Source: Gavia stellata | Lineage: Eukaryota > Chordata > Aves > Gaviiformes > Gaviidae | Assembly (NCBI RefSeq): GCF_030936135.1 | Contig: NC_082596.1 | Span: 1,030,155 to 1,094,154, forward strand | DNA length: 64,000 nt | Direction: 5' to 3' | Shown: positions 6,701 to 43,300 of the stretch, one piece after another | Position numbering within the stretch: position 1 is the stretch's first letter | How the letters are laid out: every line of letters starts with the position of its first letter | The notes under the pieces: model-generated | Told to the model about the DNA's origin: nothing | The model's database searches: none | What the model saw: only the letters and a program-made list of their open reading frames with translations | Translations under genes and position numbers: made by a program

Positions 6701-8141
6701 GGGACCCTAAAATATGTCCCCCGTGGGGCGGGGGGGGTGGTGGTAGGGCTGCCACTCACGCCTGGTGTCCTCCGGAGCCGCCTCGATGTCGGCCTGCAAG
6801 GAAAACGGGTGAAGAGATAGTTATTTCAGGCTACGGAGCAAATGATTGTTATTTTCCGCTACCGTAGAAGGAGAAAGGGCTGTTATTTTTTTGCCGTTTT
6901 GGGGTTTTTTTGGGTTTTTTTAAAGAAAACTGGGGTTGGGGCAGCGTCACGCTTGTTCCTGACTCCAGGATGTCTGTTCTCCTGCGATTCCTTTAGGCAC
7001 AAGATGAGCCTTATAGGAATGCCTTATGGAAACACGTTATAGGAACGCCTTGTGGAAGCGCCTTATGGAAGCGCCTTAGGGAAACGCCTTACGGGAACGC
7101 CCTATGGGAACGCCTTATGGGAGCACCCTATGGGAACGCCTTATGGGAACGCCTTATGGGAATGCCTTATGGAAACAGCTTATAGGAATGCCTTATGGAA
7201 ACGCCTTAGGGAAACACCTTATAGGAATGCCTTATGGAAGTGTCTTATAGGAACGCCTTAGGGAAGCGCCTTATAGGAACGCCTTAGGGAAGCGCCTTAT
7301 AGGAACGCCTTAGGGAAGCGCCTTATGGAAATGCCCTATGGAAGCGCCTTATGGAAACGCCCTATGGAAGTGCCTTATGGAAGCGCCTTACGGAAGCGCC
7401 TTATAGGAATGCCCTATGGAAATGCCTTATAGGAATGCCTCATGGAAGCGCCTTATGGAAACGCTCTATAGGAATGCCTTATGGAAGCGCCTTATGGAAA
7501 CGCCCTATAGGAATGCCTTATGGAAGCGCCTTATAGGAATGCCTTAGGGAAGTGCCTTATGGAAACGCCCTATGGAAGTGCCTTATGGAAACGCCCTATG
7601 GAAGCGCCTTACAGGAATGCCTTATAGGAACGCCCTATGGAAACGCCTTATAGGAATGCCTTATAGGAACGCCCTATAGGAATGTGTTATGGAAGCGCCT
7701 TATAGGAATGCCTTATGGAAGCGCCTTATGGAAATGGCCTATAGGAATGCCTTATGGAAGCGCCTTATAGGAATGCCTTAGGGAAGCGCTGTCAGGCGCT
7801 TCCAGGGAAGCCTCTCTTGGCTTTAACGCTGTGGAAAAGGGGCTACAGGGCGAGGCAGGGCGGCTGCTGGGCTGACAGCCGGTGCAGTGACCCCAGCGAG
7901 GCCGGTAAACGGAGCAGCCCTCCCCGCGGGACACCCGTCAGGTGTCCCCGACCCACCCGGGCGCAGGCCAGAGCCCACCGCCAGCAGCCGGCCGGGAAAA
8001 GGGGCTCGATCCCGGGGAAGGGCCCCTCTCCCATGGGCCTCCCCCGCCACCGGGCACCTGGCTGGGCTTCCTCCGCCGCTCCCGGAGGAAAGCCGCCTCC
8101 CACCGCTTCAGCAGGGCCTTCACCTCCCGCTGCCGCTCCAT
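745..8141 (-). CDS. RECQL4: RECQL4, ATP-dependent DNA helicase Q4 (5' two thirds, partial)
   Basis: RecQ-family 3'-5' helicase with an Sld2-like N-terminus, acting in replication initiation and DNA repair (family knowledge). Fifteen coding exons, high to low: 8058-8141, 6760-6793, 6368-6477, 5624-5767, 4678-5363, 3962-4061, 3242-3371, 2880-2999, 2423-2569, 2244-2336, 1987-2123, 1718-1801, 1313-1501, 1028-1210, 745-902. All are flanked by AG/GT on the minus strand and codon phases agree throughout, giving about 799 residues. The start [18 protein letters not shown] matches the family N-terminus and has a strong Kozak context (GCCATGG). Later landmarks are [37 protein letters not shown], a CCHC knuckle, Walker A STGMGKS (Lys about 563), [14 protein letters not shown] (about 665-668), FLGLTATAT, and [11 protein letters not shown]. 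The donor of the last exon (743-744) is the least certain. The C-terminal third is outside the window. It is head-to-head with LRRC14. Confidence 0.95.
1313..1501 (-). CDS. RECQL4: RECQL4 exon with DEAH box (helicase motif II)
   Basis: This 63-codon exon encodes [11 protein letters not shown], then [24 protein letters not shown] is the Walker B Mg-ATP motif, and the aromatic-rich stretch after it is typical of RecQ proteins. Exon 1028-1210 continues with [19 protein letters not shown] (motif III) and [11 protein letters not shown]. Exon 745-902 starts helicase lobe 2 with [19 protein letters not shown]. Confidence 0.93.
1987..2123 (-). CDS. RECQL4: RECQL4 exon with Walker A (helicase motif I) and Ia
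   Basis: It encodes [20 protein letters not shown] and then [14 protein letters not shown]. The GKS lysine (about residue 563) binds the ATP phosphates in this family. The motif reads STGMGKS, where human has PTGAGKS. Upstream exon 2244-2336 supplies the Q-motif region ([19 protein letters not shown]). Confidence 0.93.
3242..3371 (-). CDS. RECQL4: RECQL4 exon with CCHC zinc knuckle
   Basis: This 130-nt exon encodes [18 protein letters not shown] and then [14 protein letters not shown], a complete C-X2-C-X4-H-X4-C zinc knuckle (Cys at about residues 413, 416 and 426; His at about 421). Such knuckles bind nucleic acid. As I recall it, the human protein has lost the second cysteine here. The exon is phase 0 in and phase 1 out. 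Confidence 0.9.
4678..5363 (-). CDS. RECQL4: RECQL4 large N-terminal exon (Sld2-like region)
   Basis: This 686-nt exon covers roughly residues 125-353. It starts in phase 0 after CCCCAG and ends in phase 2 at a GTAGGT donor. It carries the conserved block [19 protein letters not shown] followed by disordered, Glu-rich sequence with two acidic runs (EEEEKEEEE and ELEEEEEK). The next exon (3962-4061) restores the frame and encodes [15 protein letters not shown]. Confidence 0.9.
7009..7788. repeat. 13-bp minisatellite in RECQL4 intron 1
   Basis: About 60 tandem copies of a 13-bp unit, of the type GCCTTATGGAAGC / GCCTTATAGGAAC / GCCCTATGGAAAC. Only a few positions vary. Each unit has a GGAA core. 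The open frames here follow the 39-bp (three-unit) codon period and are not genes. Confidence 0.95.
8058..8141 (-). CDS. RECQL4: RECQL4 coding exon 1
   Basis: It encodes 28 residues from the initiator Met to KPSQ and ends in phase 0 at a GTGCCC donor. The basic amphipathic start is typical of the Sld2-like N-terminus. It is separated from the 34-nt exon 2 (6760-6793, [11 protein letters not shown]) by an intron holding the 13-bp array. Confidence 0.93.
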
Positions 8142-40300: not shown

Positions 40301-43300
40301 CCAGTTTGCTAAGGACCAACTTCTTTGAGGGACCCGGTTACTAAGGAGCAACCTTGAGGCACCAGCTTGCCAGGGGCCAACTTCTTTGAGGGACCAGCTT
40401 GCTAAGGACCAACTTCTTCGAGGGACCAGCTTGCTAAGGACCAGCTTCTATGAGAACGCAAATCTAGCAGCCAGGTCGGTAGCGCTGTCGATCCCAATGT
40501 GTCAGGGAGGAGACCGAGGCAGGACATGCGTGGGGTGCTGCCTGTGATCAGCCGGGACAGCCTGCACCGGAGGGACGAAGCTCCTCAACTTACTTTCAGT
40601 CCCCACTGGGGAAAACTCCTGGACATTGCCTCGGAGTTACGGGTATGTCTGGTGACGGGTTCAGCCACCACTTGGATGGCTGGAACTGGGGTGGTGGGTC
40701 AAGACCCCAACTCAAATGTGGCGCTGCCCATTCCTGCTCACCGCAAAAGCCAAGGGCCAGCGGCGCTGCTCCAGCACCGCAAACCGCTACAGCTGGGAGC
40801 AATCTGGCACGCAAACCCTCATTTCTGGCAGAGGAACTCATTGAAAACAGAAGCAGGTGGAGAGAGCGGAAACGAGATGGTTTTCTCAGTGCTCTGGCCA
40901 CCTCCCCTTGCTCTGCAGAGGGGACATCCCTGCTCATGCGTCTCCTCCAGCCGGATGGGGACCAGATGTGGCATTTTGGGTGTCGCCAGAATCCAGCGCT
41001 CTTGGAGGATGCTATGAAGCCTGGGCTGAGCCCTCATGGGATTGGTATGGGAAATCTGCACTGCCGCCTTCCGACGGTGCTGGGATGTGAAACACAAGGA
41101 GATGAGTTACCGCAAAGCACTCCAGCCCCGTGCATGTGCCGGGAGCACCAAGCACAGCCAGGAACAGGCGCTCAGGGCTCCCCTGGGAGCCGGGTGGGTG
41201 CTTGGAGTCCAGGAGCTGGCTCCCACCGAGCAGCAGCCAGACTCAGGGAGGAGAAGCAGCACCTGAAGCCGTGGCACAGGGCTGAGGCTGCCACGGTGCA
41301 GCGGTGCCCGTGCCGGCGCTTGGCAGCTATGAAGGTGCGGGATCGCCTGGGGACCATCCCACTGGATCTGCAGCAGAGGCAGGGATTTAAACTGGCTTTA
41401 CATGAAGAAGGAGCTTTCACTGGGAGGGAGGCGGGGACGCTGCGCTGCCATGTGGTTTGGTCAGCCCAACCTGGCGCGGCACCTGAGGACATGCCGTGCG
41501 GTGGGCGAGGGTTGGTGGCACGGGGCACACGGTGAAGCCCCCCAGTGCCGAGGACATCCCCGAGGACGTTACCTGAGACGGATGCAGGTAGGGCTCGGGG
41601 GAGGCCAGGTTGGTCTGCACGGAGACGCTCTTCTCCAGTAGGATCTGAGGGAAGCCCAGCTTCTCGAAGGTGTTCCTCTTCCAATGCTTGTTCTCCTGCT
41701 GCGCCAACGCCTCGTCCTCACTGAAGGCTCGCACCACCGGACCCGGCATGGGCAAAGGGAGGGCACCGTCGCTCTCATAGCCTGAACCGTCCTTTTGGGA
41801 ATCCCAGCTGCTCCGTTGCTTCATGTGGTAATGGGCTTGCTGGGCTTCCCAAGCCAGGCGTGCCTGTGCCAGGAAGGGCTCGGGGAAGCCCCGTGCCGCC
41901 TCCACCTCCGCCGCCTTGCTCTCCGTACGGTTCATTGGTGATCTGTTGGGTCCCGGGGTGGCTCGTTCCTCACCCAGCATCTGCTCGCCCAACACCTCCC
42001 GGTCCCCTGAGCCGTCCGTGGAGGAGGCGTTGGGGTCGTGGGATAGGGAAGGCTTTCGGCTTTTCCTCTTTCTGGTGGAGGGCGAGTAGCCAGTAGAGGA
42101 CAAGGTGTCCTGTTGGCTGGACCAGGACATGGAGTCCTCGCCCTGGGCCACCTGGCCACCCGTTGGGCCAGGGCAGAAGTCAGGTCCCTCCATGCTGCTG
42201 TAGTCACCCGATTTGATCTCCAAGCGTTGGTCCCGCACCAGGCAGGGGCTGTGCTGCAGCGAGTACGAGCCGCCGATGGGGTTGGGGGAATATTTGTGCC
42301 TCAACCCCGTCTTCATCTTGGGGCTGGAGCCCGTCTGCTCGACATAGACCAGTTGCCTGACGTACTCCTTGCCGGCGGGGCTGTACTCCAGGCTCATGAA
42401 CCGGTCGGGACACTTCTGTTTGGTGAGCACCAACTGCTGGTAGGGCGAGTTGGAGCCTTGCTTGGGCGACTGCAGGAAGGGGTGAGGTTTACGGATGGGT
42501 GATTTCTGCGGCGAGCCGGCTTTGTAGCTCCCGCTGGCTTCGTACTGCATGTCCACGGGGGGTTCGTCATAGATGGGAGCCTGGTACTCCATGGGGGGTT
42601 CCTCGTAGAGGGGGGGCTCGTAGGCGTAGCGGGGCGAGGAGGGTTGCGACTCGCTGGAGTGCTTGCGGTGCTGGGCTTGGAGAGGGGAGCAGAAGGAGTC
42701 CCCCCGGCCAAGCAGCGGCGAGCAGCTGCCCACGTGCTCAGCCCTCTTCAAGAAGGGCGACTGCTTCCTCTCTGGGAAGAAAACAGAGTTGTCAGCGTCG
42801 GGGGCAAAGGTCTGTAGGTTGGGTGACTGTTGGCCCCCCGAAGGTCGCCGGGAACGGGTGCCCGGTTGGTTTTCGGGCGCGTAGCCGTTGCCTTGGTGCA
42901 TGAGGAAGCTGGGCTCGCGGTCGGTCACCTTGATCAGCATCCGTTCCTTGGTGCCAGCGTTCCATCGCAGGGATGACGTCCTGTGGGAAGAAACACAGCG
43001 CCGCCATCAGCGAGCGAAGCCCCCCATGCCCACAGGCAGACAGACACCCCCGTACCGCTGCCCCGGGACTCCCCAGACCCTTGGCTGCAGCAGAGCCCAA
43101 AGGATGGACATGTTCACGCACCCCAAGCCTCTCCCATCAGGTGAAAAGCACGTCGGTGATGGAGAGACCAGGGCATTGTGACCGTCCCAAACACAGTGGC
43201 ACCAGCCTGCAGCCCTTCCCGGCTCCCACAGACCTCAGCAACGCCCAGAACCGCAGCACGAAGGACACGCAGGCTGGAAAGACAAGCCCCAAAAAGCGAT

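Follow-up and report, generated by a model that had tools for sequence, protein, structure and literature searches.

Background

'Sequence stuttering' has been described in the introns of avian dot chromosomes (Hron et al. 2026, PMC12954441). There, length variation between individuals is a main trait, a location on dot chromosomes is typical but not exclusive, a subset of introns contains copies of the adjacent exon edges, and the exon-stuttering introns assigned to macrochromosomes are 36 of 236. A second system, treated in a study of frogs with a zebra finch comparison, comprises subtelomeric tandem repeats that are linked to recombination and enriched in the tetramers TGGG, AGGG and ACAG (PMC10794172). 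Human VNTRs with a GC content above 60% and units longer than 15 bp are reported to be ~21-fold concentrated near chromosome ends (PMC7608644). The chicken 'missing gene' regions are described as GC-rich and placed in subtelomeres and microchromosomes (PMC11061957, PMC6792250, PMC8449477), and tandem repeats with G-quadruplex (G4) motifs are reported in avian hidden genes (PMC6792250).

Here we describe a cluster of tandem arrays in Gavia stellata. It marks the inner margin of a GC-rich gene block, ~100 kb long and choked with repeats, that lies close to one end of a large contig. DNA of this kind has recently been described mainly from the tiniest bird chromosomes. A literature search by gene name found no published bird location for this gene block. 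The main text of PMC12954441 does not mention RECQL4, ARHGAP39 or LRRC14, and that of PMC8449477 does not mention RECQL4.

Extent of the array domain

The window, a stretch of 64,000 nucleotides (C3:1030155-1094154) in a genome of 1.32 Gb, starts 1.03 Mb into a contig of 105 Mb. TRF returned 110 rows for it, with repeats totalling 14,902 bp. The corresponding totals are 789-1,432 bp in five order-1 Markov renderings of its 1-kb blocks. The window has 11 arrays of 200 bp or more and the Markov versions have 1-4, so one or a few of the low-complexity window arrays could be chance calls. The dense cluster that an earlier note on this DNA had placed at 7009..40450 is real: tandem repeats make up 43.9% of that interval, compared with 0.6% of 40451-64000 and 1.0% of 1-7008. 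Its 33-kb extent, starting at 7009, did not hold as a unit. Arrays restart at -8.5 kb to the left of the window and continue to -62 kb, covering 13-96% per 10 kb, and the whole domain spans ~103 kb with 40 arrays of at least 150 bp and 52% repeat. The interval 7008..40454 is its inner (right) part, and the remainder lies outside the window at C3:968155-1021636.

On the left the domain is bounded by an 8,550-base N run that begins at -62 kb and is the sole N run in 264 kb; beyond it lies DNA made of long nested repeats, whose open reading frames, read by eye, showed no recognisable gene. On the right, the stretch 40455..64000 (0.6% repeat), on the 5' side of ARHGAP39, is nearly array-free, and the statement that arrays then cease is accurate for these 23 kb save for three arrays that are only 29-58 bp long. 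Farther right, outside the window, arrays reappear sparsely, the largest at 85.4-86.3 and 122.7-123.3 kb.

Base composition changes across the same interval. Outside arrays, GC is 0.66-0.78 from -62 to 0 kb, 0.56-0.67 from 0 to 40 kb and 0.44-0.54 beyond 45 kb, falling gradually rightward from the domain into ordinary DNA. No CR1 3'-end signature lies in the left 62 kb; the counts for 0-41 kb and 64-164 kb are 6 and 31. When arrays are compared with the non-array DNA here, the tetramers TGGG, AGGG and ACAG rank 6, 30 and 11 of 136.

Genes, introns and the domain edge

From the left N run rightward, the block holds a GPT-like gene, RECQL4, LRRC14, C8orf82 and ARHGAP39, followed by ordinary DNA, an order that we take to match human 8q24.3. 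C8orf82 was identified through DUF4505, and a PDB search with an open reading frame led to MyTH4 myosins. Pfam families were given for 2 of 10 open reading frames in the left block, 0 of 10 in the right flank, 4 of 9 in the window and 1 of 4 others.

Mapping by eye placed 13 introns in the interval from 6.8 to 41.6 kb. Arrays occur in 8 of them and cover 17-90% of these introns. All eight array-bearing introns are at least 499 bp long and all five array-free introns at most 459 bp; one of the two spacers carries arrays. The earlier claim that almost every intron and spacer has its own array therefore stands for long introns and fails for those of 459 bp or less and for one spacer. The right edge of the domain falls inside ARHGAP39, where the 3' introns carry arrays and almost none occur over the next 40 kb toward the WW exon, which lies near 83.9 kb on the same strand. 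RECQL4, with a GC of 0.55-0.63 and hardly any repeat, sits between two dense array blocks, and GC alone is thus insufficient to account for the arrays.

Anatomy of the window arrays

As delimited by TRF, RECQL4 intron 1 contains a 13-bp array (GCCTTATGGAARC; 7008..7789), and LRRC14 intron 1 a G-rich array organised at 31, 67 and 107 bp and at higher levels (8535..10695), in which 67-mers at 10057-10583 include 273 bp exact at lag 67. C8orf82 carries a short 18/36/54-bp array in intron 2 (14583..14715), an 11-bp array (CTGGGATCTGT) in intron 1 (14892..16083) that decays rightward up to 16207, and a 23/47-bp array immediately upstream of its start codon as read by eye (16524..16721). The spacer between C8orf82 and ARHGAP39 holds a 20-bp array with higher orders of 101, 112 and 314 bp (17087..20186) and a degenerate flank from ~16730, followed by a 73-bp array (20525..21260, core 20618-21260). 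A 37/40-bp array (22220..24228), which decays rightward, lies within the inferred ARHGAP39 3'UTR, of which 57% is array. The ARHGAP39 introns contain a 43/33-bp array (27168..28666), AT-rich arrays (31580..32086), an A-rich array (32848..33985), an AACC array (36012..36841) and a 32/61/93-bp array (40231..40454), the last of the domain.

The arrays examined show internal variants and degenerate edges. Multi-unit exact tracts are present in four of nine arrays (80 bp at lag 184, 205 bp at lag 314, 154 bp at lag 658 and 83 bp at lag 192), the 154-bp tract belonging to the multi-unit block duplications of the 43/33-bp ARHGAP39 array; two of the nine, the 73-mer and 32-mer arrays, contain no exact tract of at least two units. 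Polar homogenisation from a flanking initiation site is a familiar feature of human minisatellites. Here 17 of 32 arrays are homogenised in a polar manner, 10 to the left and 7 to the right (P 0.63), and a consistent polarity toward the contig end was rejected. A 921-base piece of LRRC14 has a single match in the assembly; with this one query no second haplotype turned up, so length polymorphism is not visible in this single assembly.

Private and shared units

Genome searches cover six window arrays (13, 11, 20, 73, 37/40 and 43/33 bp), and five of them match only themselves in 1.32 Gb. The exception is the 20-mer array, which has distant relatives on C39, C361, C18, C41 and C770. Array-like traces that score 42.1 bits or more (shuffled maximum 34.2) occur in the domain outside the arrays themselves, and 11 of 11 lie within 1.5 kb of the matching array, with none distal. 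A few of these proximal traces adjoin a neighbouring array. Independent birth of the arrays, as the earlier note had proposed, thus agrees with the apparently local origin of the window arrays, apart from the 20-mer array. No window array matches window exon DNA at 42.1 bits or more, which gives no sign of an exon origin for these arrays.

In pairwise comparison within the window, the 20-mer array matches the 73-mer array over 15 bp and the G-rich array over 18 bp; E is at least 0.1 for the remaining pairs. A single common repeat family was rejected for the window, as pairwise matches are nearly absent and the unit-shuffle test is non-significant for its 13 arrays. The proposal that unit sequences do not resemble one another is borne out there, those two short matches aside, and only partly in the left block. 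Both left-block pieces searched have relatives elsewhere at ~66-80% identity, and one left-block array matches several others of the block at 68-75% by BLAST. The motif TGGGGACA is present in 8 of the 40 arrays and looked strong in a first k-mer test; under a unit-level null, the count for GGGGACA was reached in 7 of 300 shuffles of the 27 left arrays and in 32 of 300 shuffles of all 40, a borderline result. The resemblance within the left block may reflect either shared descent or convergence on GC-rich cores.

Genome-wide context

Relatives of the left-block arrays lie mostly near the ends of large contigs or on smaller contigs. Among the matches listed, eight of the nine clusters on the ten largest contigs are within 4 Mb of an end (10.8% expected, P 1.5e-7) and six of nine within 1.5 Mb (4.0% expected, P 3.3e-7), with cut-offs picked after viewing the hits, contig ends taken as chromosome ends and two of the nine clusters on C3 itself. 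Related clusters are also found inside contigs, at C7:16.7 Mb and at 14.8 Mb of the 26.1-Mb C12. Samples at fixed places contain repeats in 3 of 10 cases at 300 kb and 1 of 10 in the interior, too few to carry weight alone. Across control pieces, repeat content correlates with GC outside repeats (rho 0.53 in 38 of 40 pieces), and pieces with at least 20% repeat make up 4 of 10 at GC above 0.6 and 2 of 30 at or below it (Fisher P 0.026); six of the ten GC-rich pieces have less than 8% repeat. Comparable density elsewhere, which the earlier note had named as evidence against its reading, is thus found in part of the GC-rich DNA.

Origin of the arrays

We consider it probable (roughly 0.65) that the arrays form the inner rim of a chromosome-end domain of stuttering driven by break repair near chromosome ends. 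A chromosome-end compartment is supported by these data; recombination as its driver is suggested by analogy with other species. Frequent double-strand breakage near chromosome ends, meiotic and perhaps also caused by replication stress, would be followed by repair, and unequal exchange, gene conversion and template switching could then turn chance short repeats into arrays that are homogenised in blocks. GC-biased repair would raise GC and selection would keep exons array-free, leaving a GC-rich, gene-dense segment in which most non-coding gaps of at least about half a kilobase hold their own array. No function is proposed for the arrays themselves. More tentatively, stuttering may be a property of distance from any chromosome end rather than of dot chromosomes, with a graded terminal zone on large chromosomes whose inner boundary can be pinned to one gene, here ARHGAP39 at ~40.5 kb.

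A regional cause, as the earlier note had suspected, is favoured by the GC gradient along which the arrays lie and by their closeness to one end of a large contig; the 33-kb local hotspot it envisaged is not, given a domain of ~103 kb with similar cores elsewhere. A cause confined to the RECQL4-ARHGAP39 interval, either a recombination hotspot or open chromatin, would match the density of the arrays and their abrupt stop at 40.45 kb, but we regard it as very improbable: the domain reaches -62 kb at higher density, the left-block cores recur near other contig ends and on smaller contigs, and the edge falls within one gene. Open chromatin or transcription alone is an unlikely cause because ARHGAP39 has arrays at its 3' end and almost none in the following 40 kb. 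It is also unlikely that replication is the source, with GC-rich DNA and G4s stalling forks, slippage at restart making the arrays and recombination being incidental. Array density does track GC, G4-bearing tandem repeats are among those reported in avian hidden genes (PMC6792250), and the G-rich LRRC14 array carries G4 motif over 48% of its length on the plus, non-template strand. It is the only strongly G4-rich array of the window, however: 9 of 12 window arrays lack the motif on both strands and one more has 1%, so G4 was rejected as their common cause. The AT, A-rich, AACC and 13-bp arrays are not GC-rich, and single-unit slippage does not make the multi-unit exact tracts at long lags seen in some arrays.

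The left boundary invites another account, in which a dot-like small chromosome or fragment forms the left end of the contig, joined to a macrochromosome by fusion or by a mis-join, and the domain is disguised dot-chromosome DNA. The N run lies there, with nested repeats beyond it in which reading by eye recognised no gene, and non-array GC rises from 0.46 in the 5-kb bin just to its left to 0.76 in the first bin to its right with enough non-array DNA (-50 kb). This GC step could reflect a mis-join. We nevertheless rate a fusion or mis-join as rather doubtful, since no other N run occurs in 264 kb, the genes continue into ordinary DNA with gradually declining GC, and their order is presumably that of human 8q24.3. 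The same N run adjoins the domain and repeats are hard to assemble, yet an assembly error that created or inflated the arrays is extremely unlikely, as neither collapse nor polishing error makes 40 arrays that differ in unit and, in those examined, show internal variants and degenerate edges. Array copy numbers may still be wrong in the assembly.

If break repair near chromosome ends is confirmed, a single locus would link avian dot-chromosome stuttering, the missing GC-rich genes and recombination-driven subtelomeric minisatellites. ARHGAP39, a single gene with an array-dense and a nearly array-free part, offers a natural experiment, and RECQL4, nearly array-free between two dense blocks, a second. 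Were distance from the end decisive, ARHGAP39 would be one transcription unit whose 3' part is unstable and whose 5' part is stable, an internal control by which the effect of position can be told apart from those of expression and gene identity. RECQL4, GPT, C8orf82 and LRRC14 may be loci at which the short-read assembly and annotation of bird genomes fail.

Comparison with described systems

The array domain fits stuttering as described in birds (PMC12954441) and also subtelomeric expansion linked to recombination (PMC10794172). Its arrays resemble in anatomy those described for chicken dot-chromosome introns (PMC12954441): an affected intron holds one or more local arrays of imperfect tandems with units tens of bases long, exons are spared, and intergenic DNA is affected too. 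Introns are heavily covered by local imperfect tandems (8 of 13), and the window arrays look local in origin, five of the six searched being private and the traces outside arrays proximal. The GC-rich, gene-dense setting free of interspersed repeats described there (PMC12954441) is matched, as judged by GC and CR1 signature, in the left 62 kb; in 0-41 kb GC is lower and CR1 signatures are present. Unlike the typical stuttering of that description, the locus is placed not on a dot chromosome but close to one end of a 105-Mb contig, is known here from one assembly, lacks exon-derived copies in the window and includes some AT- or A-rich arrays.

With the chicken missing-gene regions the locus shares high GC at chromosome ends or microchromosomes and non-coding tandem repeats (PMC6792250), although the corresponding papers (PMC11061957, PMC6792250, PMC8449477) concern gene detection and protein evolution. 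GC-rich VNTRs near chromosome ends are likewise a human feature (PMC7608644), whereas density here reaches 96% of 10 kb and several window arrays have a GC below 60%. The enrichment of left-block relatives near contig ends (eight of nine listed clusters on the ten largest contigs) is as expected of recombination-driven subtelomeric minisatellites. Frog subtelomeres (PMC10794172) differ in that their domains extend over tens of Mb and recombination was measured there, and they share with this locus a chromosome-end position, raised GC, diverse arrays and enrichment of TGGG, AGGG and ACAG.

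An array domain that extends beyond the window

The tandem arrays claimed at 7009..40450 of the window by an earlier note were recovered in place by TRF, which detects 14,902 bp of tandem repeat and 11 arrays of at least 200 bp in the window, compared with 789-1,432 bp and 1-4 such arrays in Markov controls (five order-1 versions built from the window's own 1-kb blocks). Repeats occupy 43.9% of 7009-40450 and 1.0% of the left 7 kb, and the right-hand 23 kb, said to lack arrays, is array-poor, with 0.6% repeat in the right 23.5 kb. The 33-kb interval is, however, not the unit. 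When the survey was widened to 264 kb by adding 100 kb on either side of the window, the array domain was found to run from -62 to +41 kb (kb positions are window coordinates, negative to the left of the window start), with 40 arrays 150 bp or longer spanning 52,092 bp and a repeat share of 52%. In consecutive 10-kb bins, array coverage is 96, 58, 56, 81, 61 and 13% between -60 and 0 kb and 24, 51, 46 and 25% between 0 and 40 kb; farther right it stays at 0-11%. The data support the regional feature as real and strong, and as part of a chromosome-end compartment rather than a 33-kb interval.

The 264 kb surveyed holds a single N run of 8,550 bases (C3:959606-968154, where C3 is contig NC_082596.1, 105,015,243 bases long, and the window is C3:1030155-1094154), which ends at -62,000; the first array begins at -61,999, adjoining it. 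This run coincides with a sharp step in GC and repeat, and its possible explanations are a gap, a withheld stretch, a mis-join or an old chromosome end. Bins to its left are 0-18% repeat, with mostly long units. The DNA there (C3:930155-959605, pieces L009-L012) and a further piece, L034, contain long nested repeats that are about 66-98% alike, and a piece from C3:900 kb shares 98.9% identity over 2.4 kb with C3:930 kb. No gene was recognised by eye in this DNA left of the N run, which is possibly heterochromatin of the chromosome end.

Genes within and around the domain

The right edge of the domain falls inside ARHGAP39, where repeat makes up 17-55% of introns d-g (26.6-41.6 kb) and 1% of the in-window part (42.98-64 kb) of the stretch that follows; intron limits were placed by eye, several of them a few bases off the splice site. 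ARHGAP39 matches Pfam MyTH4, plus RhoGAP just below cut-off, and a same-strand WW exon (Pfam) at about 83.9 kb is taken as its 5' part. RECQL4 was named by a PDB match (helicase Q4), LRRC14 has a Pfam LRR match below cut-off, and C8orf82 matches Pfam DUF4505. Of 10 ORFs tried left of the window, 2 gave a Pfam family: one is PPP1R16A-like, with ankyrin repeats, and the other is a GPT-like aminotransferase that falls just short of the cut-off. Gene names that go beyond the matched families are assumed, and the gene order presumably agrees with human 8q24.3. We take the human order to have LRRC24 between LRRC14 and C8orf82; no LRRC24-like gene was seen by eye between them here (window 13067-13579).

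RECQL4, in the stretch from -5 kb to window position 7000, is a nearly array-free island between two dense blocks despite high GC. Between GPT and RECQL4, tandem exons resemble, by eye, fucolectin or F5/8-type C lectin domains (L018:2200-5750, within a single DNA piece), and their scanned pieces gave no Pfam match. Upstream of the C8orf82 start codon, the 23-mer array (window 16578-16721) carries CCGGAAGT, presumably an ETS/GABP-type core, in several tandem copies, and because of this repetition the array may multiply a promoter element.

Base composition and chromosome ends

Outside repeats, GC falls from 0.66-0.78 (those 5-kb bins between -50 and 0 kb that could be measured) through 0.56-0.67 across 0-40 kb to 0.44-0.54 past 45 kb. 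It correlates with array density at a Spearman coefficient of 0.56 over 48 of 53 bins of 5 kb; the five omitted have fewer than 500 non-repeat bases, and all of them lie in the N run or the most repeat-dense section of the left side. CR1 3'-end signatures, counted with at most 2 mismatches, number 0 in -62 to 0 kb, 6 in 0-41 kb, 2 in 41-64 kb and 31 in 64-164 kb; one more lies in the 29 kb on the left side of the N run.

Forty control pieces from fixed positions, half of them 3 kb and half 700 b long, show a similar association. At least 20% repeat is reached by 4 of 10 pieces with GC above 0.6, the other six having less than 8%, and by 2 of 30 with GC of 0.6 or below (Fisher P 0.026); of these two, one holds the 190-bp satellite that ends C3 and the other the long-unit repeats around C3:900 kb. 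Repeat also tracks GC outside repeats in 38 control pieces (rho 0.53). Among the 14 controls along C3, those at 0, 0.1, 0.3, 0.5, 0.7 and 0.9 Mb are 8, 0, 57, 0, 5 and 20% repeat, and those at 1.3, 2, 5, 20, 50, 80 and 103 Mb and at the end are 9, 9, 0, 0, 0, 0, 1 and 100%. Among 700-b controls, any repeat occurs in 3 of the 10 located 300 kb into a contig versus 1 of 10 in the interior. The satellite at the far end of C3 (C3:105012244-105015243, L042) has 15.8 copies in 3 kb at 92% match, and a stretch of interstitial telomere-like sequence, about 1.1 kb long, lies at C1:1.256 Mb (L001, C1:1254795-1257815).

Relatives of the domain's arrays were sought in 1,320,717,556 bases on 1,185 contigs. 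Across the ten largest contigs, which make up 56% of the genome, the matches listed, which for the 40-mer and GGGGACA-type arrays are samples, form 9 clusters outside the domain (none for the 20-mer, 6 for the 40-mer and 3 for the GGGGACA-type), two of them on C3 itself. Eight of these 9 are no more than 4 Mb from a contig end versus 10.8% expected (P 1.5e-7) and six no more than 1.5 Mb versus 4.0% (P 3.3e-7), with cut-offs picked after the matches were seen and contig ends treated as chromosome ends; the ninth is interior, at C7:16.7 Mb. Listed matches also occur on 5, 20 and 20 contigs beyond C10 for the 20-mer, 40-mer and GGGGACA-type arrays, respectively, at least one being interior (C12:14.8 Mb of 26.1 Mb).

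Origin and growth of the arrays

All 40 arrays were matched against the domain's entire non-array DNA at a threshold of 42.1 bits, taken from PMC12954441. Eleven matches reach it (shuffled maximum 34.2), all within 1.5 kb of the matching array and none farther in the domain's non-array DNA. Five are window matches at the frayed margins of arrays, outside coding exons, and six lie in the left block (-62 to 0 kb, exons unmapped), where at least two adjoin a neighbouring array. Together with the genome-wide searches below, this suggests local birth for the window arrays.

The units, described in the earlier note as unrelated, are so in the window and not across the whole domain. Genome-wide, queries of about 200-300 bases from the 43-, 13-, 73-, 37/40- and 11-bp arrays find nothing but the array they came from, a missing match being no proof of rarity, and the 20-bp array has further matches on contigs C39, C361, C18, C41 and C770 at 65-71%. 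The left-block 40-mer array has at least 171 genome matches (40 of 46 candidates scored) and the GGGGACA-type array at least 161 (40 of 93), the latter also matching several other left-block arrays at 68-75%. These were the two left-block pieces tried; with so many relatives for each, the description is limited to the window.

Several of the nine window arrays examined hold many-unit tracts that are copied exactly at long lags within the array: 80 bp at lag 184 in the 11-mer, 205 bp at 314 in the 20-mer, 154 bp at 658 in the 43-mer and 83 bp at 192 in AACC. In the 73-mer and 32-mer arrays, no tract spanning at least two units is repeated exactly. The long-lag copies are better explained by block duplication, whether through unequal exchange, conversion or template switching, than by one-unit slippage. 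The G-rich array has 273 bp exact at lag 67, and part of it looks recent. Single arrays are polar in 17 of 32 cases, with no common direction among them. Coverage by G4 motifs is 48% in the G-rich array, 11% in the 23-mer and 1% in the 20-mer; as it is 0% in the other nine window arrays, G4 is not the common cause of the arrays in the window. A recombination driver is most likely, and we infer it as the leading mechanism. Excerpts of PMC10794172 tie frog subtelomeric tandem repeats to measured recombination, citing a zebra finch comparison, and name the tetramers TGGG, AGGG and ACAG. Among 136 tetramers, which are not independent of each other, these rank 6, 30 and 11 in domain arrays versus domain non-array DNA, and 11, 22 and 16 in 0-41 kb only.

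Comparison with known systems

Among the open-access papers covered, the gene names of the block led to one item, which was irrelevant. Chromosome-end repeats, dot chromosomes and hidden genes are treated as background in excerpts of PMC7608644, PMC11061957, PMC8449477, PMC9974502 and PMC6792250. Sequence stuttering in avian dot-chromosome introns has recently been described, and its mechanism is speculation in the authors' own terms (PMC12954441). The anatomy of the domain matches that of stuttering, here found outside the dot chromosomes typical of that phenomenon.
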